Positions 9,224 to 60,645 of a stretch of 64,000 nt of DNA are shown in pieces. This stretch comes from Hyphomonadaceae bacterium TMED5. Its GTDB lineage: Bacteria; Pseudomonadota; Alphaproteobacteria; Caulobacterales; Hyphomonadaceae. The notes beneath the pieces were generated by a model. That model was given only the letters and a program-made list of their open reading frames with translations, did no database searches and was not told where the DNA came from. The stretch spans positions 1 to 64,000 of the forward strand of contig NHBK01000018.1 of the NCBI GenBank assembly GCA_002173095.1, given 5' to 3'. A program made the translations under genes and the position numbers. How positions within the stretch are numbered: position 1 is the stretch's first letter; every line of letters starts with the position of its first letter.

Positions 9224-9811
9224 CTATCCGATGCGTCGGACGGCGCCGCCACCAATGACGCTGCGGTTGACCTCAGGTGAACCGACATAACCGATCTCGC
9301 CGCCGCCAATGATGGAAACATTAAGTTCTGTAGCTGCCGCTACGTTAATGTCACCGCCGCCAACGATGGAGACATTCACCTCATTTGCGTGAACCGAGAG
9401 GGCATCGATCTGGCCTCCGCCGACAAGGGCGATATTGAGTTCGTCTGCATTCGGGAAGTCACCTTCGATGGCCATATCACCGCCGCCCGTAATGGCGATG
9501 TTCTCAAGCGATGGCATGGTGATGACAACACGGTCTGCATGGTTGTTCCGGCAGGACCGATCGCATTCGGCGACCAGTACATTGTCATCAAGGCCAATGA
9601 TCCAACCCTGTTGCTCGGCTTCCGGGTTCACCGCGAAGGTCTGACCGTGCTGAATGAGCACTTCGCCGCCGCCACGAAGGGTGAAGCCTTCAAAATCTGA
9701 GCGCGTAATATTTTGAGAGCCAATGACGTCCAGTTCGTCATCGTGATCAGCGTGGATAACGATACAGCCAGACACGAGTGTCGCAGCGAGCAGAAGTGGG
9801 ATCAGTTTCAT
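9224..9811 (-). CDS. Lipoprotein with GIN (DUF2807) beta-solenoid domain
   Basis: A 195-residue protein. A lipoprotein signal with lipobox LVSGC (Cys about residue 15) precedes a domain made of short strands with repeated triple-glycine turns: TLRGGGEVL, ITGGGDMAI, LVGGGQIDA, SIVGGGDIN, SIIGGGEIG, SVIGGGAVR. This is the pattern of the GIN (head-GIN, DUF2807) family, usually envelope proteins of unknown function with a right-handed parallel beta structure. The start at 9811 has CGGAGA at good spacing; 17 codons upstream in the open frame are unlikely. Two Cys (AECDRSCRN) could form a disulfide. Confidence 0.82.
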   Translation of the reverse strand: MKLIPLLLAATLVSGCIVIHADHDDELDVIGSQNITRSDFEGFTLRGGGEVLIQHGQTFAVNPEAEQQGWIIGLDDNVLVAECDRSCRNNHADRVVITMPSLENIAITGGGDMAIEGDFPNADELNIALVGGGQIDALSVHANEVNVSIVGGGDINVAAATELNVSIIGGGEIGYVGSPEVNRSVIGGGAVRRIG

Positions 9812-9986
9812 TGGTGTCTCCGTGTTATTGAAAAAGATACATAATTTATTGTTTTTCGGCAAGAGAAAATTTGATCACAAATTCTGGGCCTGCTTTTCCA
9901 TTGTCATATTATGCCTGCGGTTCTAGTTAGTGTTCGAGACTATATCGAAGTCCGGATAAGGCAGAATACTCGGGAGAAACGTATAA

Positions 9987-47955: not shown

Positions 47956-48770
47956 TGCTCGATACTATGAGCTATTCGGATTTTCAATTCAAGTATGAAA
48001 AAAATATTAGATTTATACGACATCGGAATAGTGCGCTGTTTTATAATGCGAAAGCGGCATTTCCGTAGCGTCAACAAGTGAAAAATCAGATAGAAGTATA
48101 CAGTGGAAAGTTCAGGAGTGTTGAAAAAAGAACACACCTTGATCCGCCAAAAGCGAGACAATTACAGACTCAGATGGTTCTGTTTTTCTGATTTTTCGGA
48201 AACCTGCTGGTGCCGCCGGAGAGTTTTTCATTGAACTCCCCGGAAGAGGTCGAAGCACTCTTCCAGGTTCTCCAGGATTTCGAAGATCAGCTTAGGCCAC
48301 ACCGCAATGTGCTGGAAGGAGTTGGGCCTATGAACCAGCCCTCTGCTGTTACAGATTCCAGAGGGTCGTGCTGACACCGCAGCGTAAGCACTAGTCACCT
48401 TCCCGACGCGTCTGTCCGATGATGGATTGGCATGAAAATTAAATAATTACAAAATATTATGGGGCTACGTGTGCGCTTCGTGTGCAGTAAGAAATCGCCT
48501 TGCCGCCATTGGCACAATGAAATGGGGCAAGTGTGGTCCGTTCTGACTCAATTCTTCATAGACATTGTAAGCGTTTGCCTCATCCGGGAAACGGACGTCT
48601 TGATATTGGCGGCGATTCGTACGCCATATTGAGAGAGAGACCAGTGAGGGTGTTTTCGTAGCTGCTTGAAACTCCCAGTTTCACTATTCGATCGGCGAAG
48701 GCGGGGTGTCACCTGATTGCTGCGAGAATCTGAATGACACCCCAATTACCAGAATGAAGCTGTCGTCCCA
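47956..48770. other. 815-bp region without a clear gene; left flank of the island
   Basis: No frame has convincing coding character on either strand except the short one at 48210-48374. The first part is AT-rich (promoter side of the TonB receptor); the remainder is mixed. It holds a perfect hairpin GGAAGAG/CTCTTCC at 48242-48264 and a sequence resembling the tRNA-Thr 3' end at 48208. This looks like the junction between the pectin locus and the island. Confidence 0.5.
48210..48374 (+). CDS. Short unrecognised frame (54 codons), possibly a gene remnant
   Basis: From a GTG the frame encodes a helical, acidic stretch (SPEEVEALFQVLQDFEDQLR) with gene-like composition, ending at 48374. There is no ribosome-binding site and no family recognised. 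It overlaps the tRNA-like sequence at the presumed left island edge. It may be debris of a longer gene or chance. Confidence 0.2.
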   Translation: MPPESFSLNSPEEVEALFQVLQDFEDQLRPHRNVLEGVGPMNQPSAVTDSRGSC

Positions 48771-49331
48771 TCAGTCCATCCTGGTAATCTTTGTGCCTTC
48801 GATGCTGAGGCCGGCCATCAGGCCCTGTTGATCAAAGATGAAGGCGTAGGCGTCGTCGGAGAATGTCGTTGTCGAGAAATTCTTGGCCGCACCTTCGTCC
48901 ATGACCACAACAGTCGGGCCAACGCCGATTTCCCATCCATCGGACTGTTCGAGATAATTGAGCGCCTCCTGGTTCATCAGGAAGACCGCATAACCATAGG
49001 ATTGCGCCCCGGTCTGCAGGCCCCAGGAGCCGGTGAAGGATTTGTACCGCCCGAGCGAGGCCCCATTGCGGCGGAGTTCACCTTCGCCATAAGCGCCGCC
49101 GAGACCGAGCCCGGCCTTGACTATGTTCGGGAAGACCAGAACGGCGACCGCCTCCCTTGAAATTGCCGCCGCTGCGGGGTTCGCGGCCGAAAGGTCCTGT
49201 AGCGCCCGGGTACTGTCGCCGGTGAGTTCGCTGCGGCTCTCTGCTGAAGAGCCATAGCTGCTGCAGCCAGCCGTGGTCCCTAAGAATGTAAGGGCAATGC
49301 CCATGATGAATGTCTGAAACGTACGAGCCAT
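48771..49331 (-). CDS. SYLF-domain (Ysc84-like) lipoprotein
   Basis: A 186-residue lipoprotein: lipobox TAGC (Cys near 23), then a SYLF/DUF500 domain. The family pattern is seen in AVAVLVFPNIVKAGLGLGGAYGEGELRR near 63, GSWGLQTGAQSYGYAVFLMNQEALNYLEQSDGWEIG near 103 and the C-terminal DDAYAFIFDQQGLMAGLSIEGTKITRMD. Eukaryotic SYLF domains bind phosphoinositides; bacterial ones are envelope proteins often linked to stress. The start at 49331 has GAGGA upstream. First island gene from the left; no operon partner. Confidence 0.85.
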   Translation of the reverse strand: MARTFQTFIMGIALTFLGTTAGCSSYGSSAESRSELTGDSTRALQDLSAANPAAAAISREAVAVLVFPNIVKAGLGLGGAYGEGELRRNGASLGRYKSFTGSWGLQTGAQSYGYAVFLMNQEALNYLEQSDGWEIGVGPTVVVMDEGAAKNFSTTTFSDDAYAFIFDQQGLMAGLSIEGTKITRMD

Positions 49332-49618
49332 GGCCGTCTTGTCCTCAACTGAGTTGGATGATGGACGCCTGATACGCCCGGCCATCGGTTTCAGTACTGA
49401 TTGAGGTTAGCCAGCTGCGATTTCATCAGATTATTTCCATGAGGCTAACTTGCGTCAGCTCCAACCCCTCGCAGAGGTGAAAAAAACGGCACTGTTCCTC
49501 GACACCAGGGGGACAGCATGTCCGGAACCGTGGTGGCCTCCTTCTTCTATCTCTCTCGAGGCCTTGTAATCTCCCTGATTGCGTCACGGTTCCGGATTTT
49601 TCCAGAAAGGAAAAACGC

Positions 49619-49816
49619 ATGAAAAACGACAAAGAGAAGACGTCCAACGTCTCTGAGAAAATGAAATCGGTCAAAGCTGCCTGGGACAAGGCCCCGGACG
49701 GTTCCAAGAAGGACAATGCCCTGAAGCATTATCAGGCCGCCGAGACCGCTCACAAGGCGAACAAGGACGCCGAAGCCAATCGGGAGCTTGATGCTGCCTC
49801 CAACTCTCTGAAGTAA
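49619..49816 (+). CDS. Small hydrophilic helical protein
   Basis: A 65-residue, highly charged protein without signal or Cys: KEKTSNVSEKMKSVKAAWDK, then APDGSKKDNALKHYQAAETA and HKANKDAEANRELDAASNSL. It resembles short alphaproteobacterial hypotheticals with the AWDKAPDG...LKHYQAAE...NRELDAA pattern, of unknown function and often near stress genes. AAGGA before the ATG. Probably cytosolic and helical. Confidence 0.6.
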   Translation: MKNDKEKTSNVSEKMKSVKAAWDKAPDGSKKDNALKHYQAAETAHKANKDAEANRELDAASNSLK

Positions 49817-49944
49817 AAGCATCAAGCGTTCGGTTCGTGACGATCGACGCCAGTATGGCCGCTCCGTAGAAATGGGGCGGCCGTATTGCCCTTCGCCCCG
49901 GCAAAGCATTTCGCATCTTCGGCCTGTTTTGGGGATTAATCATT

Positions 49945-50112
49945 ATGACGTTAGGCTTGTTTTCAATTTCAATTTTACTCGTGTTCCTGTTCGGATCATT
50001 CGTCCGGCAATATGGCTGTATTGGTTACGGTCTCGGCCGGGCCGGCATTGGGATAACCGCAGCGTCAACTCTGCTTCTCGCGCTGCTCATCTTCGCCATT
50101 TGTCTCAAGTGA
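49945..50112 (+). CDS. Small two-helix membrane protein
   Basis: A 55-residue protein: first membrane helix LGLFSISILLVFLFGSFV, a glycine-rich turn (YGCIGYGLGRAGIG), second helix ITAASTLLLALLIFAICLK. Gene-like codon use and clear hydrophobic pattern support it, though the ribosome site is weak (GGGGAT some 12 nt upstream). Family not recognised. Confidence 0.5.
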   Translation: MTLGLFSISILLVFLFGSFVRQYGCIGYGLGRAGIGITAASTLLLALLIFAICLK

Positions 50113-50197
50113 CTGCGCAAACCCAAGATCCTAAAGCCGATAGGCAAAGACGCTCAGAAGGCCGGGGGCGGTGTATCAGACGAAGCAAGCAACCGCG

Positions 50198-50932
50198 TTA
50201 CCGTATCAAAGGCGTTTGATGGTCCAGATAGACCGGATCGAATTCGGCGAAGTCGACCAGTCGCTCATAGTCACCGATGGCCACATGACCATCGCGGAAC
50301 ATAACCCTGAAATTCTCCCGCAGATATCGAAGGACGCGATTGACGTGCACTGCGCTGAGCCCCAGCGCGTCTGCAAGATGGTATTGCGTGAGGGGACACT
50401 TGTAAGCCGCCTTTTCTCCTTCTCCGACCAGAGCACAACGCGCGCCGAGTTCCAGAAGGAAGTGGGCGGTGCGTTCCGATGCGCTGCGTCGACCAAGATC
50501 AATCAGATGTTCCACAACCATCGCCTCATCACGAGAGGCCGCCCAGAGGACCGCCGTTGCGAGGCGCGGGAATTCGGAGAAAACCTCAAGCAGGTCCTCA
50601 GCCGAAACTTCTGAAACCTCGATATCGGTTACTGGCTCTATGCCGTGATCGGATGTCTGCAGCAGCACGCTGCGCAGCCCCAGAAAATCACCCGGAATCT
50701 GGAAATCCACGATCTGGCGTGCGCCATTTGCGAGGATCTTGTAGGAACATACCCAGCCGCGAGCCAGAATATAGGCGACACGGTCCGACTGCCCCTGATG
50801 AACGAGATCGCCACCCGCAGAAATTGTGAGGCGCTTGCGGTGAAACCGCTTCATTACGTCGAGCTCATCCTGGGATAGCGCGACGAACGCTGCCAGCTTA
50901 AGCTCGAAGGCTGTTTCAGACGGGTTGCTCAC
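50198..50932 (-). CDS. Crp/Fnr-family transcriptional regulator
   Basis: A 244-residue regulator: cyclic-nucleotide-binding-like beta-roll (GDLVHQGQSDRVAYILARGWVCSYKILANGARQIVDFQIPGDFLG, residues about 40-87), dimer helix, and an HTH_Crp domain (CPLTQYHLADALGLSAVHVNRVLRYLRE near 183-210). It lacks the N-terminal Cys cluster of Fnr, so it is not an obvious oxygen sensor. The FixK/Fnr-like box at 50982 lies upstream, between it and the divergent genes leading to nhaA, suggesting local control of both. Confidence 0.88.
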   Translation of the reverse strand: MSNPSETAFELKLAAFVALSQDELDVMKRFHRKRLTISAGGDLVHQGQSDRVAYILARGWVCSYKILANGARQIVDFQIPGDFLGLRSVLLQTSDHGIEPVTDIEVSEVSAEDLLEVFSEFPRLATAVLWAASRDEAMVVEHLIDLGRRSASERTAHFLLELGARCALVGEGEKAAYKCPLTQYHLADALGLSAVHVNRVLRYLRENFRVMFRDGHVAIGDYERLVDFAEFDPVYLDHQTPLIR

Positions 50933-50981
50933 TTCGTGCTCCAGGCTCCGCTTTAAACTATCGACAAAGTCTCAGCGGGCA

Positions 50982-50995
50982 CTGATTTGAATCAG
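50982..50995. promoter_or_regulatory. FNR/FixK-like box between the regulator and the divergent nhaA unit
   Basis: CTGATTTGAATCAG is a perfect 14-bp inverted repeat containing TGAT-N4-ATCA, the core of Crp/Fnr-type boxes. It is 50 nt before the regulator start and 27 nt before the 51022 gene. Confidence 0.55.
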
Positions 50996-51021
50996 CCCAA
51001 ACTATCTGAAAATCGAACAAA

Positions 51022-51321
51022 ATGGGAAAAATCGTGGGGCAGGTAGAATGGCCGCATGACGATTTGCTCGCGAAGGATATGCAGGTGAGCCCAAAACCAG
51101 ATTATTCAGGACAGGCAGCGCTCTCCATTATTGAATCGCTCCTGCTCGCGATGAACGACGGCAAACTTCTGCCGGAGGGCGAGATCATCGGCATACTGAA
51201 TGATGCAGCCAAATCTCACGAGAATGCGATTGGCCATGATTCAGAGGCAGAGATGCATGCCGAAGTTGCAGCTTTGATCAACCGCATCATTTCCGGCGGA
51301 AATTCGGTTCGCCGACCGTAG
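51022..51321 (+). CDS. Hypothetical protein upstream of nhaA
   Basis: A 99-residue acidic protein with helices ALSIIESLLLAMNDGKLLPEGEIIGILNDAAKSHENA and EAEMHAEVAALINRIISGG. No family recognised. Alphaproteobacterial proteins of this helix pattern occur as orphans. The ATG at 51022 lacks a ribosome site; an ATG at 51079 (MQVSPKPD) is an alternative. The next gene, nhaA, begins 18 nt downstream, so they probably share a transcript behind the FNR-like box. Confidence 0.55.
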   Translation: MGKIVGQVEWPHDDLLAKDMQVSPKPDYSGQAALSIIESLLLAMNDGKLLPEGEIIGILNDAAKSHENAIGHDSEAEMHAEVAALINRIISGGNSVRRP

Positions 51322-51339
51322 CTTGCGGGCGACGAGGTC

Positions 51340-52659
51340 ATGACAGATCAAAAGAACGAAAATCTGCCGGTGGGGGCCGCTGACTGGTTCACGAAGCCGT
51401 TTGAACGCTTTCTTAAAATTGAAGCTGCCGCCGGCGGGCTCCTGCTTCTGGCGCTCGTCATTGCTCTGGTGTTGGCGAACTCGTTTTGGGCGAAGGGTTT
51501 TCTTGCGTTCTGGGAGACTCCCATAGGCCTGACATTCGGATCACTGGATTTCACCCGTTCCTTGCGCCACTGGATCAATGACGGGTTGATGACGTTCTTC
51601 TTCTTTGTGGTTTCGCTGGAGCTAAAGCGGGAAGTTGTCCTTGGCGAGTTGCGCAATCCCCGATTGGCGGCACTTCCTCTTGCAGGCGCCCTCGGAGGCA
51701 TGGTCGTTCCAGTTCTGCTGTATGTGATGCTCATGAACGGTGAGCCGGGATCGCATGGGTGGGGAACGGTCATGGCAACCGATACCGCATTCGTGATTGG
51801 TTGCCTTGCAATCTTCGGGCGTCGTATTCCGCCAAGTTTGCGCCTGTTCCTGCTGTCCTTGGCCATTTTCGATGATGTGGGAGCAATTCTGGTTGTCGCC
51901 TTGGGGTATGGAGAGGCACTGAACTGGCAAGCGCTGGGACTTGGAGTTCTTGGCCTGGGGAGCGTTGCGGCAATCTCGCGCCTGGGAATCAGAAGCATCC
52001 CGGTCTATTTCCTGCTGGGGGGTGCAGTCTGGCTATGCTTTGACGCCTCCGGCATACATGCAACGATCGCTGGCGTCATTCTGGGACTTATGACGCCGAC
52101 CAAGGTCTGGGTAAGTGACACCCGCCTTCGGTTGATCCTCGGCCGTGTCCTTGCCTATCCTCAGGGCGAACATTGGAGCGGAGACACTTCAGACCGTCAC
52201 GATCTGCGTCAGGCAGGCAAAGCGGTTACGGAGTCACTCTCTCCCATAGAACGCCTTGAAATCATGCTGCATCCGTGGGTTGGATTTGCCATTATGCCAG
52301 TCTTCGCATTGGCCAATGCCGGGATTGCGGTTCACAATGCCGATATCGGGCAATCGGTCTCCGTGGCGATCATTGCCGGTCTTTCGCTGGGCAAACCGAT
52401 TGGTGTTGTGGGGTTCAGCTGGCTCGCCGTCCGTTCTGGTCTGGCTGTGCTGGCTCCCGGTCTTTCCTGGCCATTTGTCGCGGCCGGTGCCTTCCTTACG
52501 GGCATTGGCTTCACCATGTCCCTGTTCATTGCCGGCCTCGCGTTCGAGCCAGCGATGCTGAATGCAGCCAAGCTTGGCATACTTTCGGCGTCCGCCATTT
52601 CGGCACTGATTGGCACGCTGATACTGGTCCGCCTGACAATGCGGGATAAAAGAGTCTGA
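51340..52659 (+). CDS. nhaA: Na+/H+ antiporter NhaA
   Basis: A 439-residue inner-membrane antiporter exchanging cytosolic Na+ for protons, giving salt and alkaline tolerance. Visible family features: SLELKREVVLGELRNPR near 90, ATDTAFVIGCLAIFGRRIP near 145 (Asp of the transport site), AIFDDVGAILVVALGYGE near 175 (the Asp-Asp pair), and GKPIGVVGFSWLAV near 350. Length is slightly above the E. coli enzyme, as in other proteobacterial NhaA. CGAGG before the ATG. It is an island gene and may be a second copy in the genome. Confidence 0.95.
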   Translation: MTDQKNENLPVGAADWFTKPFERFLKIEAAAGGLLLLALVIALVLANSFWAKGFLAFWETPIGLTFGSLDFTRSLRHWINDGLMTFFFFVVSLELKREVVLGELRNPRLAALPLAGALGGMVVPVLLYVMLMNGEPGSHGWGTVMATDTAFVIGCLAIFGRRIPPSLRLFLLSLAIFDDVGAILVVALGYGEALNWQALGLGVLGLGSVAAISRLGIRSIPVYFLLGGAVWLCFDASGIHATIAGVILGLMTPTKVWVSDTRLRLILGRVLAYPQGEHWSGDTSDRHDLRQAGKAVTESLSPIERLEIMLHPWVGFAIMPVFALANAGIAVHNADIGQSVSVAIIAGLSLGKPIGVVGFSWLAVRSGLAVLAPGLSWPFVAAGAFLTGIGFTMSLFIAGLAFEPAMLNAAKLGILSASAISALIGTLILVRLTMRDKRV

Positions 52660-53141
52660 ACAGAAATTCGTGACTGCGGGCTGGCTTTCCCCGCCGAGAT
52701 TCTGATGTTCTGGATCGTCCGGCCTGCTCACAGCATAAACAATGAATGACGTATCGATGTGCTTTACAGAAAGCAGCCGGATATCAGGGTGGCATAAAGA
52801 AACATCGCAGATTAGTTTTGCGTGCAGATGTAAAATGAGAAATCGTCCCCATATATAGCCGACGGAACAAATGTTCCACACACATATATATTCAGTCCCC
52901 TGACGGACGTTTTCTTCAAATCGACCTAGCGACAAATCGCGCAGCACCTTGAAGGGTACGGGTGCGGAAAGTCCGCTAATGTCTCTGCGGCACCGCAAGA
53001 GAGAACGAATGACTGTCAGCTTCCTTGATCGCCAAAGAGCCAAGGCAGTTTGCAGCGTTCTGCCCTGCCACATTATTCGAGCGAAGTGACTAGCTACCAG
53101 TCAGGCAGTCAATCCCAGGCATGAAGCATGAAGGACTTCCG
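52660..53141. other. 482-bp region without a gene
   Basis: No convincing coding frame on either strand; the long minus-strand frame here is mostly the shadow of nhaA. It holds TATATA-rich tracts (52850-52895) and an inverted repeat GGAACAAATGTTCC at 52864-52877. The promoter for the gene at 53142 is probably here. Confidence 0.6.
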
Positions 53142-53435
53142 ATGACCAATCGCATAACGAAAAAGCTCGTTACCTTTCGCAACCCATTCACGCTGGGACG
53201 TAACGAAGAAGAATGGCCGGCGGGGAACTACACCATAGAAACCGAGGAGGAGCCGCTGGATTCGGTTTCGCTTCGAGGTTTTCGCAGGATACGTACGACC
53301 ATGATTGTCCGATCGTTCACCGGACGATCTGGCGTAACGCGCTTTGTAGAGATTGACCCCTCTGATCTGGATGCAGCATTGGCAGATGATCGCGAAGGCA
53401 TCGAGCGCGCCGAAAATGAGGGAATGCAATCGTGA
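53142..53435 (+). CDS. Small hypothetical protein preceding the Trp/Cys-repeat protein
   Basis: A 97-residue protein, basic at the N-terminus (TNRITKKLVTFRNPFTLGRNEEEWPAGNYTIETEEEPLD) and acidic at the C-terminus. No signal peptide or membrane helix. The central RIRTTMIVRSFTGRSGVTRFVEIDPSDLDAAL gives a beta-rich look. No family name recognised. AAGGACTTCCG precedes the ATG at 53142; the ATG seven codons earlier has no such site. Its stop overlaps the start of the repeat gene (GTGA), so the two are coupled. Confidence 0.6.
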   Translation: MTNRITKKLVTFRNPFTLGRNEEEWPAGNYTIETEEEPLDSVSLRGFRRIRTTMIVRSFTGRSGVTRFVEIDPSDLDAALADDREGIERAENEGMQS

Positions 53436-54169
53436 CGCCGAAGTACATTTCAAGCCTCGATGAGAAATGGAGAGACTCGCTGACACATAACTGGTCAAGG
53501 CGCTTTTCTGTCCCCACGAGAGCCTTTGCAGGCTTCTTCTTATTCTTTTTATGTCTCGCGACAAATCCAGCCCATGCTCAAACTGGCTCCGAACTACCGG
53601 AAAATGCAACCCTTCGGTCCTACGGCTCTGGGTGGACCTGTGACTTTGGCTTCCGTGAAGCATACTCACAGTGTGTTAGAATTGTTGTTCCCTCAAACGC
53701 ATATGCGACTGATGCAACCTACGGACGCGGTTGGGAGTGCAATTACGGGTTTGATCGTGAAGAAAATGATTGCGTTGCTGTAGTCGTTCCGGACAACGCC
53801 TATCTTGAGTACTCGGGATCAAGTTGGACCTGCAATCGTGGTTTCAAGCGAGAGCGGGACGGTTGCGCCGCGATCATTGTACCTGAGAACGGCTATCTGA
53901 CGGACAGAGGTTATGGCGCGGGCTGGGAGTGTAAACGCGGTTATGTCCAGTATCAGTTGATGTGTAACCACATCGATCTGCCCGCCAATGCATTTCTCAC
54001 AAGCAGTAGTTATGGACCCGGTTGGGACTGTGAACGCGGATTTTATCAAACGGAAGCCAGCTGTGAAACAGTTATCCTGCCAGCCAATGCTCATCTGAAC
54101 TATTCCGGCGATGGCTGGGACTGCAACCGTCCCTACAAGCAGGTGGGTGAAGCCTGCAGAATGCCTTGA
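53432..54169 (+). CDS. Exported protein with six tandem Trp/Cys repeats
   Basis: A 245-residue protein starting at GTG. A long N-terminal region ends in a signal-like helix (FAGFFLFFLCLATNPAHAQ), after which six copies of a unit of about 31-34 residues follow: G-x-G-W-x-C-x(2)-G-[FY]-x(6)-C-x(3)-[IV]-x-[LV]-P-x-N-[AG], starting near 67, 100, 132, 165, 199 and 231; the last is truncated after its second Cys. Each unit has one Trp and two Cys, suited to one disulfide per unit in the periplasm or outside. No known name recalled. Coupled to the gene before it; a trypsin-like protease gene follows. Confidence 0.72.
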   Translation: MTPKYISSLDEKWRDSLTHNWSRRFSVPTRAFAGFFLFFLCLATNPAHAQTGSELPENATLRSYGSGWTCDFGFREAYSQCVRIVVPSNAYATDATYGRGWECNYGFDREENDCVAVVVPDNAYLEYSGSSWTCNRGFKRERDGCAAIIVPENGYLTDRGYGAGWECKRGYVQYQLMCNHIDLPANAFLTSSSYGPGWDCERGFYQTEASCETVILPANAHLNYSGDGWDCNRPYKQVGEACRMP

Positions 54170-54425
54170 AGGCTCTGTTTGTAGGGCGCCTTGCGGTGCC
54201 CTCTCTGCCTGCCCCCACACGGTTGGCGGCCCATGGTGCTAGCGTGATGGCAGAGGGGACACAATCGGCAATCAGAATAAAAGGAACAGGTTCACCTCAT
54301 GACCATCCTCACAATATGGACGAGCCAGGCACCACGCTTTGCCCTGCCGCATCAGATTTTTCAGGTATTGAAAGTGAACCATATTGGAGGCGGCAGTTCT
54401 CCCGCCAGGCCTGCGCGGTCGCGAA

Positions 54426-55151
54426 ATGATTGAACCTGTGCTCATGACCACAGTGCGGATAAGCACTTTCGATGGCCAAATCGGTCTCACGAACGCAACA
54501 GGCTTTTTCTTCGAGCAAGGCGGAGTTCTGCAGCTTATCTCATCTCGCCATGTCGTTTTTGAGGAACCCTCGGGTCACAGGCCGGACCGGATCGAGATTG
54601 AACTGCATGTGTCTCTCGATGATCTTGGGCAGTCGATAAATTTTTCAATACCTCTTTACAGGAATGGAAAGAACGTCTGGCGCGAGATCAAGGACAGTGC
54701 GGGCTGGGTTGATTTCGTAGCAATAGACATCGACAAGGACGCTTTGCCGGAAACGTTCTTTTACACTGCATTTTCACCTGCTCACCTTGTGTCGTCGAGC
54801 CAGCGTATCGAGATTGGCTCGACATTGCTTGTGATCGGCTACCCGCTCGGCTTCGAGGACACGCTTCACCATCTCCCGGTTGCGCGCCAGGCGGGACTGG
54901 CCTCCTCCTACGGTCTGCGCTTCAGGGGGCAGGGTTACTTTTTAGTCGATGCAAGAACGCATCGAGGCATAAGTGGTGCGCCAGTTGTGATGCAGAACCC
55001 AAAGGCGGGCCTGGATGACCCGCTTCCGTGGCGCCTGCTTGGTGTGCATTCATCCCGTCTTGAGGCCTTCTCAAGAGACCCTGTGCAAGATGAGATCCTT
55101 GGGTTGAACGCGGTTTGGTATGCTGATGCGCTCACAGCTTTAATCGAATGA
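54426..55151 (+). CDS. Trypsin-like serine peptidase
   Basis: A 241-residue chymotrypsin-fold peptidase. Catalytic His in QLISSRHVV near 38, Asp in GWVDFVAIDID near 98, Ser in RTHRGISGAPVV near 180; the Gly-x-Ser-Gly setting GISGAPV is classical. No signal peptide is apparent, so it may act in the cytosol, or the true start differs: the frame is open to a TTG at 54384 and no good ribosome site is visible. The 256-nt gap after the repeat gene is short, so co-transcription is possible. Substrate unknown. Confidence 0.78.
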   Translation: MIEPVLMTTVRISTFDGQIGLTNATGFFFEQGGVLQLISSRHVVFEEPSGHRPDRIEIELHVSLDDLGQSINFSIPLYRNGKNVWREIKDSAGWVDFVAIDIDKDALPETFFYTAFSPAHLVSSSQRIEIGSTLLVIGYPLGFEDTLHHLPVARQAGLASSYGLRFRGQGYFLVDARTHRGISGAPVVMQNPKAGLDDPLPWRLLGVHSSRLEAFSRDPVQDEILGLNAVWYADALTALIE

Positions 55152-55210
55152 TCCTGTTATCATCAGCTAATTATGGGGCTCCAAGCCAAAATACCTACCG
55201 CAAACCCCGA

Positions 55211-57007
55211 CTAGAATGGAAAGAACACAGGGATTGTTGCAACGGCGGAAGCTCCAACCAGCACATTCATGGGGACACCGATCTTAAGGAAGTCGGCAAA
55301 CTTGTAGTTGCCGGCGCCATAGACCAGCGTATTGGTCTGATACCCGATTGGGGTTGCGAAACTCGCGCTCGCCCCGAACATGACTGCTACAACGAACGGC
55401 CGCGGCTCGACGCCTATTTGCGTTGCCAGCCCGATTGCCAACGGAGTTACGACAACGGCGACGGCATTGTTGGTAACTGCTTCCGTCAATATTGACGAAA
55501 GTGCATAGACCGCCGCCAGCGCCACAATCGGAGGAAGCGTCTCAAGCGTCGGCGCAATCAGGCTGACAATAAGGGCGACGGCGCCTGAGTGTTCAAGTCC
55601 GGCGCCGACAATCAGCATCGAGAAGATCAGGACCAGCACACCTGCATCAATCGATGCCCACGCTTCATCACTGTCTATGCATTTGAGCAAAAGGATCGCT
55701 GCGACAGCAACCAATGCGAGCACGCTGATGTCAGCCGCTCCGGTAGCGGCGAGCACCACGACACTGATAAGTGCCATCATGGCGATCGGAGCCTTTCTTC
55801 GACGGAAGGCGCGACCTGCAGCGGGTGTAATCGCCGCCAGATCGCCCGCCTCCGTCAAGCGGGCAAAGCCTTCAGGAGTACCTTCAAGAAGTAGCTTATC
55901 GGCAGGGCGCAGAAGCTCGGTCGACAGGTCGGTGCTGAGATCTTCGCCGTGACGATGGATGCCAAGGACGCGCAACCCATAACGATGGCCAATCCCAAGC
56001 TGAGCGACGCGCACAGCACGTTTTCTACGAGACAAGGTTACAATTGCCTCCGCCACGGTCAGATCGGCGCTATCTTCGGGTATCGGCCCCTCCCGCAAAC
56101 CAACATCCAGGTTGCGGCGGTTTCTCAAAGTCAGCAGTTCGGAGGTCACCACAATAGCAATGATCCGGTCGCCATACTGGAGCACGTGGTCGCTCCGCAC
56201 CTGAGGTTTTGTACCCGACCGGTTGCGAACCCCGACGGTCTCTACACCCGGCAGGTTCAGGTCTTCAATTTCGCCAATTGGCCAGCCGATACCTTCGTAA
56301 CCATGGCGCGGACGCAGTTCGGTCAGGAACGAAGGTTCCTCTGTGTTCCTGGACCCTCGTCGCTCTTTCCTGTCGGGTAGCAATATAGGACTAAGGACAA
56401 GCAGGGAGAGGCCGCCGACGGCAGCGGCGATCAGGCCTACCGGAGTGATCTCAAGGATTGAGAACGGCTCCAATCCGGCTTCGCGGGCCACGCCGTCCAC
56501 GAGAAGGTTTGTCGAGGTGCCGATCAGCGTGCAGGTCCCGCCCAGAACGGCCATGTAGGAGAGCGGGATCAGCAGACGCGTTGCGGCCAGGTTGAGGCTT
56601 TGCGCCAAACGGACAGCAATCGGGATCAGAACAAGCACGACCGGCGTATTGTTCATAAGCGCCGATGACAGAAGCGCCGCAATCAGAAATGCAGCCAGGC
56701 CAAGCATCGGTCTTTGCTCGGCAGCGGCGACGACCCGGTTTGCAAGTGCATCGAGTAAACCGGTCCGGACCAGTGCACCGCTCATGATGAACATCGCGGC
56801 AATCGTAATCGGCGCTGGATTGGAAAAGGCCGTCAGGACATCCTCGGTCGGCACGAGGCCAAAGACGATGAAAAGCGCTGCAGCACCTGCTGCGGTAACT
56901 TCCGGAGCGAAGTGCTCCTGAAGAAAACCGACAAACAAGATCAGTAACAGCCCGAGAGCGAGGTAAGGCTCAAAACCGCCGATGAAATCGATCAGGGCAT
57001 TCTCCAT
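55211..57007 (-). CDS. SLC13-family permease with TrkA-C domains
   Basis: A 598-residue inner-membrane permease of the divalent anion:Na+ symporter group. N-terminal helices with FSNPAPITIAAMFIMSGALVRTG near 60 and SSALMNNTPVVLVLIPIAV near 110 and GGTCTLIGTSTNLLVDG near 150, a central soluble part of two TrkA-C-like segments (RNRSGTKPQVRSDHVLQYGDRIIAIV; LRPADKLLLEGTPEGFARL), then C-terminal helices with AVTNNAVAVVVTPLAIGLA and ATPIGYQTNTLVYGAGNYKF. Relatives carry sulfate, silicate or dicarboxylates; the ion is unknown. Start at 57007 by family fit, no clear ribosome site. Confidence 0.88.
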   Translation of the reverse strand: MENALIDFIGGFEPYLALGLLLILFVGFLQEHFAPEVTAAGAAALFIVFGLVPTEDVLTAFSNPAPITIAAMFIMSGALVRTGLLDALANRVVAAAEQRPMLGLAAFLIAALLSSALMNNTPVVLVLIPIAVRLAQSLNLAATRLLIPLSYMAVLGGTCTLIGTSTNLLVDGVAREAGLEPFSILEITPVGLIAAAVGGLSLLVLSPILLPDRKERRGSRNTEEPSFLTELRPRHGYEGIGWPIGEIEDLNLPGVETVGVRNRSGTKPQVRSDHVLQYGDRIIAIVVTSELLTLRNRRNLDVGLREGPIPEDSADLTVAEAIVTLSRRKRAVRVAQLGIGHRYGLRVLGIHRHGEDLSTDLSTELLRPADKLLLEGTPEGFARLTEAGDLAAITPAAGRAFRRRKAPIAMMALISVVVLAATGAADISVLALVAVAAILLLKCIDSDEAWASIDAGVLVLIFSMLIVGAGLEHSGAVALIVSLIAPTLETLPPIVALAAVYALSSILTEAVTNNAVAVVVTPLAIGLATQIGVEPRPFVVAVMFGASASFATPIGYQTNTLVYGAGNYKFADFLKIGVPMNVLVGASAVATIPVFFPF

Positions 57008-57123
57008 GGTCTGACTGTCTGCAGATTCAATACCATATTCCGGGAGCAGGTGTCGGGATGAGGGCCTTCGACCAAGCGGGGGCTTGGTACGGCTCAAGCT
57101 GTTACATTGAAGAAGATGTACAG

Positions 57124-57260
57124 CTATCCGGTTCCAGGATCCTGTATGGTCTGAAGTGACCTGAGGCGTGCTAGTTGTTCAGTCCAGCATTGTTGACGTA
57201 CTCGAAGACGGTCAGGCCCCTGAGTGTCTTCAGCCGCTTGGCGAAGTTTGTCCCCCGTCA
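57124..57260 (-). pseudogene. C-terminal remnant of an IS3/IS481-type transposase, frameshifted
   Basis: Minus-strand translation gives NFAKRLKTLRGLTVFEYV in one frame and then QQCWTEQLARLRSLQTIQDP in the next. Together they read as the usual rve-transposase end (FAKRLKTLKGLTPYE, then Q-WT-x-P-x-RF), joined only through a one-base shift. The rest of the gene is missing. A dead fragment. Confidence 0.65.
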
Positions 57261-57334
57261 GCGACCATGAGACAGATCGGTCAAATTGCTTAAGGAGGAT
57301 TTCTGGCACATCGCAGCCCATCGAGGGAGCGAAG

Positions 57335-57475
57335 ATGAGACAGAAATCCGGGCCGGAAGGATCGGCCGAAAAGTATGTGAAAAAGATTCGCCGAAAGACC
57401 GGGCGCAAATTCTCGGCTGAAGAGAAGATTCGCATTGTACTGGAAGACCTGCGCGGAGCGGGACGGGTCCTTAGC
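57335..57475 (+). pseudogene. N-terminal remnant of an IS3-family orfA transposase
   Basis: The frame reads MRQKSGPEGSAEKYVKKIRR and KTGRKFSAEEKIRIVLEDLRG, the conserved start of HTH_Tnp_1 (IS3 orfA) proteins. After LRG the similarity stops: the rest (AGRVLSSTRISKPTA and on) lacks the CRREGI HTH. Truncated near 57470 and opposite in direction to the transposase end at 57124. Confidence 0.75.
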
Positions 57476-57653
57476 TCGACGCGCATTTCAAAACCGACAG
57501 CTGACCTGTATAGGGCGGCGCGCGCCATTTTTTTGCTGGCTCGGATGGTTCATTCCAGATCGGCCCGGCTTGACTCTTTTCCTGTGCCCCGCATTCTGAA
57601 GGGGCTGACGCCGCAGGCTCCCCATCCGGTTCTCACTTACAGGAGAACCGCAA

Positions 57654-57905
57654 ATGAGCCAGCCATCCTTTTTCCGCAAAACGTCCCCTTCCTTCCCAAA
57701 ATCGACGATTCAAGGCCTGGTCCTGAACGGTCTCGACCGGCGCCGCCTGCGCGGTGTCTGGCGCAATGCACAAGACACAGTGCCCATTCGGGCCTGTTTT
57801 GCTAGCAAAATCAAAAGGTTATATATCTTGCCCGCCGTCGACGGTCTGTCGACGGTTTGGTTTTTCCATAAAAATATCAATAAAAACAGTGAGCGGGTCG
57901 AGTGA
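57654..57905 (+). CDS. Possible small protein of unknown function
   Basis: An 83-residue frame starting MSQPSFFRKTSPSFPKSTIQ with AGGAG nine bases before the ATG. The first part is Arg-rich (LDRRRLRGVWRNAQD); the second half is encoded across the palindromic region at 57797-57856, which makes translation to the end doubtful. Its stop TGA shares a base with the next start. No family recognised. Confidence 0.25.
   Translation: MSQPSFFRKTSPSFPKSTIQGLVLNGLDRRRLRGVWRNAQDTVPIRACFASKIKRLYILPAVDGLSTVWFFHKNINKNSERVE
57797..57856. promoter_or_regulatory. Palindrome and repeat cluster before a DNA-binding-like gene
   Basis: TTTTGCTAGCAAAA (57797-57810) is a perfect 14-bp palindrome; CCGTCGACGG (57835-57844) is a perfect 10-bp palindrome; GTCGACGGT occurs twice at 57837 and 57848. 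Such clusters upstream of a small DNA-binding gene are seen at operators, partition sites or transfer origins. No specific identity can be claimed. Confidence 0.45.
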
Positions 57906-58195
57906 TGGCAGTCACCGATATCCCCGTCGGGAATGGCAACCGGATCATGTTCCGGGCCTCCGCCAGCACCTATACCGCGCTCGCCCTTCACGGCAGGCGG
58001 CAGGGCATTTCTCCCTCCGTCGCGGCGCGTCGAATTCTCGATGAGGCGGTCCACAAGGGCACGGTCGAGCAGACCCTCGACCTCCTGATCGATTGCATCC
58101 TCATCCTGGATGAACTCGTCCGCGTGATGCTGTCGGATGTCGAAGCCGAACATTTTGCGCGCTTGCGCGCGATCGATCGCGCGGAGAGGCGCTGA
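57905..58195 (+). CDS. Possible ribbon-helix-helix protein of mobile-element type
   Basis: A 96-residue protein. The first half, NRIMFRASASTYTALALHGR and RQGISPSVAARRILDEAV, has the strand-helix-helix outline of RHH proteins such as plasmid mobilisation or partition accessories; the second half is helical (LDLLIDCILILDELVRVML). GTG-ATG starts overlap the preceding frame. Location after palindromes and beside recombinase genes supports a DNA-binding role, but the family is not certain. Confidence 0.5.
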   Translation: MAVTDIPVGNGNRIMFRASASTYTALALHGRRQGISPSVAARRILDEAVHKGTVEQTLDLLIDCILILDELVRVMLSDVEAEHFARLRAIDRAERR

Positions 58196-58199
58196 CCCC

Positions 58200-58430
58200 A
58201 TGGCTGAGCGCTATTCCCCCCAGCATGATGCGATTGACAACCGGATGCGCACGCCGATGGACCGGTTCGGGCACGGCGGGCGCATGTCGACCCCAAGTCG
58301 TTGTAAACGGAAAATACCTCTCGATCGACAGTTTGTCCTTTCGAATTACCCGCCGATTACCTCGTCCAATGTCCATGAATTCCACAGGCTGGTCTTGTCC
58401 CAAAAAGCAAGGAGAGTTCTCCGTGTCTGA
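58200..58430 (+). CDS. Hypothetical, probably truncated mobile-element gene
   Basis: A 76-codon frame five bases after the preceding stop, the spacing of an operon. The start MAERYSPQHDAIDNRMRTPM then DRFGHGGRMS looks gene-like; after about residue 33 the composition changes (RCKRKIPLDRQF and on) and an overlapping frame is open instead, so the original gene is probably cut or frameshifted here. No family assigned. Confidence 0.35.
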   Translation: MAERYSPQHDAIDNRMRTPMDRFGHGGRMSTPSRCKRKIPLDRQFVLSNYPPITSSNVHEFHRLVLSQKARRVLRV

Positions 58431-58559
58431 AGATGATAGACCGCTAATTACGCCCCAGCCGCACAGACTGACCGGCTACACGAGCCGAAGTATCTGCTCG
58501 CAGCGCGTAACGACCCGCATGTCTGATGCGTTGATCATCGTCCTTTCGAAAGGAGGACA

Positions 58560-58580
58560 ATGCGGGTGAAAGACATTTAA
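58560..58580 (+). CDS. Six-codon minigene with strong ribosome site
   Basis: ATG CGG GTG AAA GAC ATT TAA is preceded by AAAGGAGG at four bases. The peptide would be MRVKDI. It ends 20 nt before the next gene start, so it could act as a leader or coupling frame for the gene at 58601. It may be chance. Confidence 0.25.
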   Translation: MRVKDI

Positions 58581-58600
58581 AAGACAAAGGGAAACGAGCC

Positions 58601-58930
58601 ATGGAATACCATGACCGCCCAGACCAAGCGATTTCGCATTCGAGTGCCCGCAAAGCTTCAAAACCAATCGTGGAAATCGATTTTGCGAGATACGAGCACT
58701 ATCTCGCCGACCCTGATCTCACCGAAAAGCAAAGGCGCGAACTTCTCACTGCCATCTGGAACATTATCGTAGAGTTCGTCTCTCTTGGGTACGGTGTTCA
58801 TCCACTCCGGCAGGCCTGTGGACAGCCTAGGAAAGCCAATACAATTCTGAGCGCCAAGCTCCTCGATGCGCTAGAATGTTCTCAGTTTCAGAATGCCACC
58901 GAAAAAGAAAGCAGCACGGGTCACAACTAG
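58601..58930 (+). CDS. Small hypothetical protein upstream of the recombinase
   Basis: A 109-residue protein with a central helical segment (FARYEHYLADPDLTEKQRRELLTAIWNIIVEFVSLGYGVHPLRQ). Proteins with this pattern are frequent directly upstream of large serine recombinases in alphaproteobacterial elements, so a helper or regulatory role for integration is plausible but unproven. It ends 33 nt before the recombinase ATG and lies inside the long frame that precedes that start. Confidence 0.6.
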   Translation: MEYHDRPDQAISHSSARKASKPIVEIDFARYEHYLADPDLTEKQRRELLTAIWNIIVEFVSLGYGVHPLRQACGQPRKANTILSAKLLDALECSQFQNATEKESSTGHN

Positions 58931-58962
58931 TAGGCCGTTACAGAAGGAGCCGAGTGTTGCGC

Positions 58963-60645
58963 ATGAATGAAGTAGCCCAGCCAACTAAAGCTCTCATCTA
59001 TTGCAGGGTCTCCACAAAAAAGCAGCTCCAGGGTGCAGGTCTCTCCAGCCAGGAACATAGATGCCGCCAATATTGCGAGGCGAAGAATTATTCCGTCGAA
59101 GCTGTTTTCCCCGATGATGCCAGCGGTGGCGGTGATTTCATGAAGCGGCCCGGGATGGTCGCCTTGCTGCAGTATCTCGATGCACACGCGAGAGAGCGGT
59201 TCGTGGTCGTATTCGACGATCTCCGACGCTATTCGCGCGATATCGAGTTTCACTTCCGGCTGCGCCGCGAAATGGAAGATCGGCATGCCACGCGCGAGTG
59301 CCTGAACTTCAATTTCGATGATACTCCAGAAGGTCTGATCCATGAGGGCTTTGTCACGCTCACCGGCCACTATGAGCGCCTCGTCAATTACCGCCAGAGC
59401 CGTCAGAAAAGTATAGCGCGCCTCGAACAGGGCTTCTGCGTCCAGTCGATCCCGCCGATTGGCTATCGCTATGAGAAGGCGTCGATGGGCGGGAAGATGC
59501 TTGTGCGCAATGAGCCCGATGCCAGTGTTGTTCAGGAACTTCTTGAAGGGTATGCCAGTGGGCGGTTTGCCTCACAGGCTGAAGTCACCCGCTTTATCAA
59601 CAACCATCCGACGTTTCCGACGCGCAATGCGACGAAGAAGATGACGCAATACACCGTCGTGAAGATGCTGCGTCAGCCGCTCTATGCTGGGCTTGTCGGA
59701 AGCGCGAAGTTCGGCGTTCCTACACGGCCGGGCCATCATGACGGCCTGGTTTCCATCGAGACCTTCCAGCGTATTCAGGACCGGTTAGACGGCCGCAGCT
59801 ATGCCGCACCTCGTATTGATATCGCCGAGGATTTCCCTCTTCGATCAGCAGTATGCTGCGCGGAATGTGACACGCCGCTGACCGGCGGTTGGTCGAAGGG
59901 CAAGTACAAGAAATATCCTTACATGTTCTGCCGCCAAAAGGGCTGTTCGCAATATGGCAAGACGATCCCGCGCGGGAAGATCGAGGGTGAGTTCGAGGAA
60001 CTGCTCGCGGCCATGCAGCCGACCCAGGGTCTCGTCGATGTTGCCACAGCGATGTTTCGCGATGTTTGGGATCGGCAGGCCGAGCAATCGGCTGCCATGA
60101 GTGCTGCGTTAAAGCGCGACATCAAGAAGATTGAGGAGAAGATCACTCAGACCATCGACGCGGTGGTCGAAGCAACCAATCCGCGTGTGGTGTCAGCTTA
60201 CGAGAAAAGGATTGAAGGGCTGGAAATGGATAAGCTCGCACTGCTCGAAAAGAGCCAGAATCTCGGAAAGCCGCGTGCCCCCTTCGGAGAATTGTTAGAA
60301 CTCTCCCTGCGCTTCCTATCAAACCCTTGTACTATCTGGAAAAAGGGTGGCTACGAATTGAGGCAAATCGTGCTCAGACTGGTCTTCCCAGGCCATCTTC
60401 AATACAGCCGGAAGGAAGGATTTAGAACTCCGAAAATATCGTTGCCTTTCAAGGCTTTAGGTGCGTTTTCGGGGGTCAAAAATGAGATGGTGCCGCGAGG
60501 GAGAATTGAACTCCCGACCTCACCCTTACCAAGGGTGCGCTCTACCACTGAGCTACCGCGGCGTTGCATTCGCAGAGCGGGGTCGTTACCTCAAACAAAT
60601 GCGATTGAAAACCCCTTAATCATGTTGTCGGTGAAGAATGTCTGA
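58963..60645 (+). CDS. Large serine recombinase (site-specific integrase) reading through tRNA-Thr
   Basis: A 560-residue recombinase. Resolvase domain: YCRVSTKKQ with catalytic Ser17, SSQEHRCRQYCE, DDLRRYSRDIEF (residues 1-150). Recombinase domain about 170-290 (GYRYEK, MLRQPLYAGLVG). Zinc-ribbon-like CCAECDTPLTGGWSKGK with CRQKGCSQYG near 305-340, then a coiled-coil region near 385-440. It integrates and excises the island. The last 54 residues (MVPRGRIELPTSPLPRVRST and on) are the antisense translation of tRNA-Thr and flanking chromosome, so that end exists only in the integrated state. Start: ATG 58963; a GTG at 58954 or TTG at 58957 lies nearer the AAGGAG site. Confidence 0.9.
   Translation: MNEVAQPTKALIYCRVSTKKQLQGAGLSSQEHRCRQYCEAKNYSVEAVFPDDASGGGDFMKRPGMVALLQYLDAHARERFVVVFDDLRRYSRDIEFHFRLRREMEDRHATRECLNFNFDDTPEGLIHEGFVTLTGHYERLVNYRQSRQKSIARLEQGFCVQSIPPIGYRYEKASMGGKMLVRNEPDASVVQELLEGYASGRFASQAEVTRFINNHPTFPTRNATKKMTQYTVVKMLRQPLYAGLVGSAKFGVPTRPGHHDGLVSIETFQRIQDRLDGRSYAAPRIDIAEDFPLRSAVCCAECDTPLTGGWSKGKYKKYPYMFCRQKGCSQYGKTIPRGKIEGEFEELLAAMQPTQGLVDVATAMFRDVWDRQAEQSAAMSAALKRDIKKIEEKITQTIDAVVEATNPRVVSAYEKRIEGLEMDKLALLEKSQNLGKPRAPFGELLELSLRFLSNPCTIWKKGGYELRQIVLRLVFPGHLQYSRKEGFRTPKISLPFKALGAFSGVKNEMVPRGRIELPTSPLPRVRSTTELPRRCIRRAGSLPQTNAIENPLIMLSVKNV
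60488..60562 (-). tRNA. tRNA-Thr (anticodon GGT), CCA encoded
   Basis: Minus-strand cloverleaf: acceptor GCCGCGG with CTCGCGGC (one G-T pair), D-arm TAGCTCAGTGGTAGAGC, anticodon arm CACCCTTGGTAAGGGTG with anticodon GGT, T-arm GGGAGTTCAATTCTCCC, discriminator A and encoded CCA at 60488-60490. The 3' end faces the island and is the presumed integration site. Confidence 0.96.

Follow-up and report, generated by a model that had tools for sequence, protein, structure and literature searches.

A six-repeat exported protein and its neighbours on a tRNA-Thr island: possible members of a mobile alphaproteobacterial stress kit

Several described systems lie close to the locus examined here. EGF domains, with which its exported repeat protein is compared below, contain three Cys pairs per module. 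The tLST is a mobile island of extra stress-gene copies, on which envelope genes are accompanied by those of an ion antiporter and a protease; dna-hsp20-clpG forms its core, and KefB and DegP occur in the fuller versions (PMC8290217). In the nuclease-protease pairs of Hachiman and AVAST, a defence enzyme has the protease as its fusion partner and is encoded 3' of an MBL nuclease gene (PMC12799240). In the literature searched, which consisted mostly of records without full text and of parts of PMC12429752, PMC12799240 and PMC8290217, nothing was found on the repeat or on the wider gene kit described below.

The locus lies in a 64,000-nucleotide stretch of contig NHBK01000018.1 from Hyphomonadaceae bacterium TMED5 (the window), and its features are collected in Table 1. 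The original prediction had described a set of three genes, here termed P1, P2 and P3, encoding a small beta-rich protein, an exported protein with six Trp/Cys repeats and a trypsin-like protease. All three ORFs were reproduced at the positions predicted; the decayed remains of a zf-CHCC gene, located between P2 and P3, had been overlooked. We propose that P1, P2 and P3 are part of a mobile, modular gene kit by which Alphaproteobacteria would cope with ion and envelope stress, a reading to which we give about even chances. The kit as proposed consists of a Crp/Fnr regulator, NhaA, small proteins, P1 and P2, with HflKC, transglutaminases, a cold-shock protein and P3 as optional members. The locus is similar to the tLST in that antiporter and protease genes are found on a mobile island, here NhaA and a Trypsin_2 protein on an island defined by an empty site; by contrast, NhaA, Crp/Fnr, P1 and P2 are present instead of the tLST core families. 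None of the 12 island ORFs scanned had a Pfam match to these core families (HSP20, Clp), and because the core genes are absent from these ORFs the island is not classed as a tLST. With the nuclease-protease antiviral pairs, the locus shares a trypsin-like protease within a gene pair; P3 differs, however, in being free-standing and without an MBL match, and no MBL nuclease was matched by the same 12 ORFs.

Table 1. Features of the island and its cargo, in coordinates of the window.
Feature	Position	Strand	Remarks
Genomic island, 12.5 kb	47958..60487		Inserted at 3' end of tRNA-Thr; empty site in relatives
YSC84-domain protein	48771..49385	-	PF04366, 36.6 bits
Operator-like site TGGCTAACCTCAATCAGTAC	49394..49413	-	PWM score 12.9; matrix derived from sites outside the window
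Operator-like site AGGCTAACTTGCGTCAGCTC	49442..49461	+	PWM score 22.4, best in the 64-kb window
65-aa kit protein	49619..49816	+	47-74% identical copies in 11 plasmid records
Crp/Fnr-family regulator	50198..50932	-	PF00027, 48.0 bits; PF13545, 43.8 bits; homologues beside P2 relatives
Palindrome CTGAT-N4-ATCAG	50982..50995		Between Crp/Fnr regulator and 99-aa gene
99-aa protein	51022..51321	+	Divergent from regulator; likewise in L028, L126, L131, L145, L189
Na+/H+ antiporter NhaA	51340..52659	+	PF06965, 442 bits
Block common to Henriciella aquimarina	53135..57173		4 kb, single blastn match, 91.2% over 4045 columns
P1	53142..53435	+	97 aa, beta-rich with C-terminal helix, no signal peptide seen
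P2	53432..54169	+	245 aa, predicted exported six-repeat Trp/Cys protein
P2 mature-repeat stretch diverged from Henriciella	53561..54100	+	Flanks similar
Degenerate zf-CHCC remnant	54247..54429	+	Overlaps P3 start; intact ORFs in relatives
P3	54426..55151	+	241 aa, trypsin-like protease without signal peptide; start ATG 54426
CitMHS/TrkA_C transporter	55211..57097	-	PF03600, 240 bits; PF02080, 38.4 bits
Serine recombinase ORF	58876..60645	+	Runs into tRNA-Thr; PF00239, 61.0 bits; PF07508, 27.8 bits
tRNA-Thr(GGT), insertion site	60488..60562	-	ARAGORN; 60488 is the 3' end

The insertion was delimited by comparison with relatives. In Ponticaulis koreensis (L203) and a second genome of the same genus (L204), matches to window positions 47957 and 60488 lie approximately 330 bp apart, and no match to the island interior was detected in the 19.6-19.8 kb fetched. 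This empty site supports the earlier view of P1, P2 and P3 as island cargo; the island encodes a serine recombinase and is inserted at tRNA-Thr, and its exact borders are now added. An att site in the form of a duplicated tRNA 3' end was looked for in the window, but no exact repeat of at least 14 bases was found; the GC content was unremarkable. A third genome of the genus (L202, G004) had no left-flank match and displayed a 42-bp recombinase-like match to the left of tRNA-Thr; since L202 shows this short match only, the tRNA-Thr site may be reused as an insertion hotspot. Elsewhere in the window, positions 25370-47914 resemble a pectin/uronate utilisation locus, much of it conserved in P. 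koreensis, with genes named by reading as lyase-like, GH43-like, uronate isomerase-like, KDPG aldolase-like, sugar kinase, TRAP transporter, LacI-type regulator and TonB receptor. Positions 990-1931 encode a protein with two similar glycine-zipper halves flanking a long Asn/Gly/Tyr-rich linker, and positions 9224-9862 a small exported protein with repeated G-G-G turns, by eye perhaps a bacterial head-GIN domain.

The overlap of P1 and P2 that had been taken as a sign of coupling was present and comprised four bases (GTGA), the GTG start of P2 lying on the stop codon of P1. A structure model of P1 (pLDDT 80.5) bore out the beta-rich character predicted, its strands being followed by a helix, and yielded no convincing PDB match to its fold (best E 0.81). 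The zf-CHCC remnant had itself no Pfam match; intact zf-CHCC ORFs were located straight 3' of P2 in L030, L032, L036 and L049, the last of which scored 40.8 bits against PF10276. The 5-kb Henriciella contig L036 holds two different P2 homologues at most ~3 kb apart, one with P1 and the other with zf-CHCC.

Relatives of P2 were detected in 49 of 200 near genomes (the window's own counted). In a class sample of 289 genomes (own counted for P2), P1 was found in 30, P2 in 16 and P3 in 4. The named genome collection, in turn, contained P2 matches at 264 places in Alpha- and Gammaproteobacteria, and viral contigs contained one. The 82 P2 loci compared here thus represent the best 80 of the 264 places, the viral locus and the window, several being close relatives of one another. 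Within 3.5 kb of P2 and on the same strand, P1 was present at 21 of these 82 loci, P3 at 8 and an intact zf-CHCC ORF at 3. P1, P2 and P3 occurred together at four: the window, Henriciella aquimarina (L070) and two Rhodospirillaceae (L127 and L135) with the gene order P1-P3-P2. P2 is followed by P3 in a Chromatiales locus (L132), and the two genes are divergent on a Methylocystis parvus plasmid. P1 and P2 shared five genomes of the class sample, in four of which they were no more than 0.5 kb apart or overlapping. Judged by co-occurrence in the 82 loci and the class sample, P1-P2 is a steady pair and P3 an optional addition. The association of the genes recurs elsewhere, mostly in subsets, but a fixed three-gene system, as the original prediction would have it, is not supported, P3 being facultative and the gene order varying.

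The flanks of 127 loci, among which some contigs appear twice (e.g., L048/L070 and L049/L071), were fetched for a survey of neighbouring genes. Homologues of the regulator were found at 10 of these loci, of the 65-aa protein at 8, of the 99-aa protein at 6 and of NhaA at 3; cold-shock protein was encoded at 17, transglutaminase at 16 and DUF1488 at 13. HflK was detected at 23 loci, many of which correspond to a Hyphomonas housekeeping site. In annotated plasmid regions, P1/P2 were observed beside Crp/Fnr, GroEL/ES, HflKC, transglutaminases and NhaA. The four best plasmid matches of the island NhaA were 75.6-78.7% identical and belonged to the Rhodobacterales Roseovarius indicus, Paracoccus aminovorans, Ruegeria conchae and P. 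zhejiangensis; all four plasmid records carry P2 and the 65-aa protein, with NhaA and P2 spanning 6-17 kb. The NhaA matches in other Ponticaulis (five of six genomes with a match) were only 35-50% identical. A Methylocystis plasmid encodes NhaA, cold-shock proteins, a P3 homologue and P2 inside 10 kb.

A CTAAC-N4-GTCAG box was found to precede kit genes, and a conserved CTGATCC..AGCAG-like stretch was recognized by eye upstream of the regulator in kit loci. Half-sites [CT]T[GA]A[CT] separated by 4 bases reached densities of as much as 0.32 per kb among nine kit loci (none in L126), compared to 0.035 per kb in other loci. When the window was scored with a position weight matrix (PWM) of 12 sites from loci outside it, the best site (49442) and a second one (49394) were both inside the island. 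A PWM site was located ~132-135 bp before the P1 match in L131, L145, L187, L188 and L189, five cases that include close relatives and belonged to the training set; L124 and L143 have held-out sites before P2. Among the 84 control loci, three scored, all other copies of kit loci (L010, L163 and L180). No box with the standard spacing was detected before P1 in the window. Crp/Fnr-type boxes are present in both divergent promoters of the island (49394-49461 and 50982-50995). An EcfG stress promoter before P1/P2 was rejected (2 of 126 loci vs. 0.46 expected), as was the palindrome GGAACAAATGTTCC at 52864 as a shared element, which was not conserved elsewhere.

The mature part of P2 contains six repeats at a spacing of 31-33 residues (~32), each with one Trp and two Cys. 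The unit had been described as regular: its strict form (G-x-G-W.../G-[FY]) held in four of the six repeats, whereas the relaxed motif W-x-C-x2-[GP]-[FY]-x6-C and P-x-N-[AG] were each found six times. When the mature part was shuffled 20,000 times, one motif copy arose in 6 shuffles and more than one in none, and the repeats were kept throughout a 32-row alignment of relatives. The N-terminus has a hydrophobic stretch closing with A-H-A-Q that is a putative signal peptide, called by eye as was the absence of one in P3, and 12 of the 13 Cys lie within the mature part, so P2 looks exported and disulfide-ready as originally supposed. Inspection of the sequence by eye revealed neither an anchor nor a lipobox.

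An AlphaFold2 model of P2 (pLDDT 84.6, pTM 0.58), a check that the original prediction had suggested, was an elongated all-beta chain of short strands, but returned no significant structure match; by sequence, P2 had no match among solved structures. The matches to the model were led by EGF and TNF-receptor modules, with NELL2 EGF1-6 the best by Foldseek (E 1.8e-3, TM 0.18, not significant) and a VIA-align Z of at most 3.4, and no neighbours other than EGF/TNFR/CCP-like modules stood out. We take the W-x-C-x2-G-[FY]-x6-C of P2 to be similar to the last loop of EGF domains. The window P2 scored 13.8 bits against EGF_MSP1_1 (PF12946), below the cut-off of 27, which was passed by four of ten relatives scanned singly (L034, 28.7; L040, 77.1; L127, 31.9; L135, 31.6 bits); among 32 aligned relatives, 26 matched at E ≤ 0.01. 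Each P2 repeat has two Cys, thus one pair, in contrast to the six Cys and three disulfides of an EGF module. The repeat, which the original prediction could not name, indeed has no name of its own, yet its motif resembles the C-terminal loop of EGF domains. L040 and L034 are P2-like, with shorter repeats or an additional Cys-bearing C-terminal region.

Comparison of the window to Henriciella aquimarina revealed that DNA identity per 60-bp step was 88-95% before the mature-repeat stretch of P2, 58-77% within it and 92-100% after it. The dS was 0.69 for P1, 0.17 for the signal-peptide part of P2, 0.09 for P3, 0.13 for the transporter and 0 for the last 22 residues of P2; the P2 repeats were saturated. 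As the mature region alone is strongly diverged between similar flanks, the pattern indicates an old allele set between younger flanks, and thus allele exchange. Positive selection alone was ruled out for this region, and exchange of an old allele fits better, because synonymous sites are saturated (pS 0.853) at a dN of 0.29. In four locus pairs, amino-acid identity was 69.0, 60.6, 79.3 and 56.8% for P2 vs. 97.5, 90.0, 94.7 and 63.5% for P3, with P2 the more diverged in all four; general hypervariability of P2 is unsupported by this comparison, which is limited to these four pairs.

P3 has Trypsin_2 (PF13365) as its only domain and scored 30.7 bits, just above the cut-off of 27.6. Residues H42, D96 and S183, which we presume from their motif to be the His-Asp-Ser triad, were invariant in six of six aligned sequences, in agreement with the intact triad reported earlier; the signal peptide, as also reported, is missing by eye. 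P3 also matched PADLOC PDC-S45, a phage defence candidate (E 2.9e-21), and PHROG 7688 (9.3e-29). Although P3 matches all three families, it adjoins P1/P2 in a stress-type island and not a known defence locus, and is probably a cytoplasmic quality-control protease.

For the stress kit as proposed, the observations comprise the sequences themselves, the empty insertion site, repeated occurrence on plasmids and the box near kit genes; the following steps are inferred. Under stress, the Crp/Fnr regulator would act at the candidate CTAAC-N4-GTCAG boxes, and NhaA would restore ion and pH balance. P2 would be exported by Sec and, with one disulfide closed per repeat, form an extended rod of EGF-C-loop-like hairpins that may bind or shield an envelope or extracellular partner; exchange of its mature part between alleles would be expected if this partner is variable. 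P1, produced together with P2, would act in the cytoplasm, as would P3, a quality-control protease joined to some kit versions and not a processor of mature P2. The stress role is based on the neighbours NhaA, cold-shock protein, HflKC and GroEL. Evidence counted against the kit includes the occurrence of P2 alone in Hyphomonas, the lack of a standard box before P1 and of an EcfG promoter, the presence of NhaA at 3 of 127 loci and the non-significant structure matches of P2.

Alternatively, P1, P2 and P3 may be loosely associated cargo with separate roles and no joint pathway beyond co-transfer, P2 being a generic secreted protein and P3 a generic protease. P3 also occurs alone, P2 and P3 share the window's own genome only in the class sample, and many Hyphomonas genomes have a P2 homologue alone in a conserved housekeeping neighbourhood; therefore, P2 does not need the kit. 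Separate roles are nevertheless rather unlikely in our judgement, as P1 and P2 overlap or nearly overlap in several lineages and P2 and P3 are adjacent, in varying order, in Hyphomonadaceae, Rhodospirillaceae, Chromatiales and Methylocystis. A role of P2 in biofilm formation or attachment to a host, as an EGF-like adhesin or matrix protein with no link to stress, would suit its EGF-like loop, its elongated model and its location on plasmids of marine Roseobacters. This is very unlikely, however, given that neither anchor nor lipobox was seen in P2 and that the annotation of the plasmid regions examined names no adhesion genes.

A module for anti-phage or inter-bacterial defence, in which P2 would be the exchangeable exported protein and P1 and P3 the cytosolic arms, is improbable. 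The exchanged mature region of P2 and the matches of P3 to PDC-S45 and PHROG 7688 point toward defence, and the PDC-S45 match leaves the defence role originally suggested with a weak lead; however, PDC-S45 is itself only a candidate, ten other island ORFs scanned matched no PADLOC family, P2 relatives are nearly absent from viral contigs (one locus) and the neighbours are stress genes. We assign an equally small likelihood to P2 as a variable, receptor-like exported rod whose mature domain would be a cassette, exchanged from strain to strain while the signal peptide and the last repeat stay fixed. In this view, the rod would make up, with cytoplasmic P1 and P3, a new module for envelope sensing or defence that is linked to Crp/Fnr and spread on plasmids and tRNA islands of Alphaproteobacteria. 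P3 lies within 3.5 kb of P2 at 8 of the 82 loci, as might be expected if it processed or matured P2 as the dedicated protease of a surface assembly system. Cleavage of exported P2 by P3 is unlikely, since of the two proteins only P2 carries a signal peptide; with most P2 loci devoid of P3, and P2 diverging more than P3 in all four locus pairs, we find processing of this type highly improbable.

Taken together, the mature exported domain of P2 quite clearly appears to have been replaced between similar flanks, and the minimal bacterial repeat of P2 resembles the last EGF loop. If the proposed kit is real, it would represent a mobile alphaproteobacterial stress kit that is parallel to yet distinct from the tLST. 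Its regulator, its candidate operator and the exported protein that serves as its signature would all be testable in cultured marine strains.
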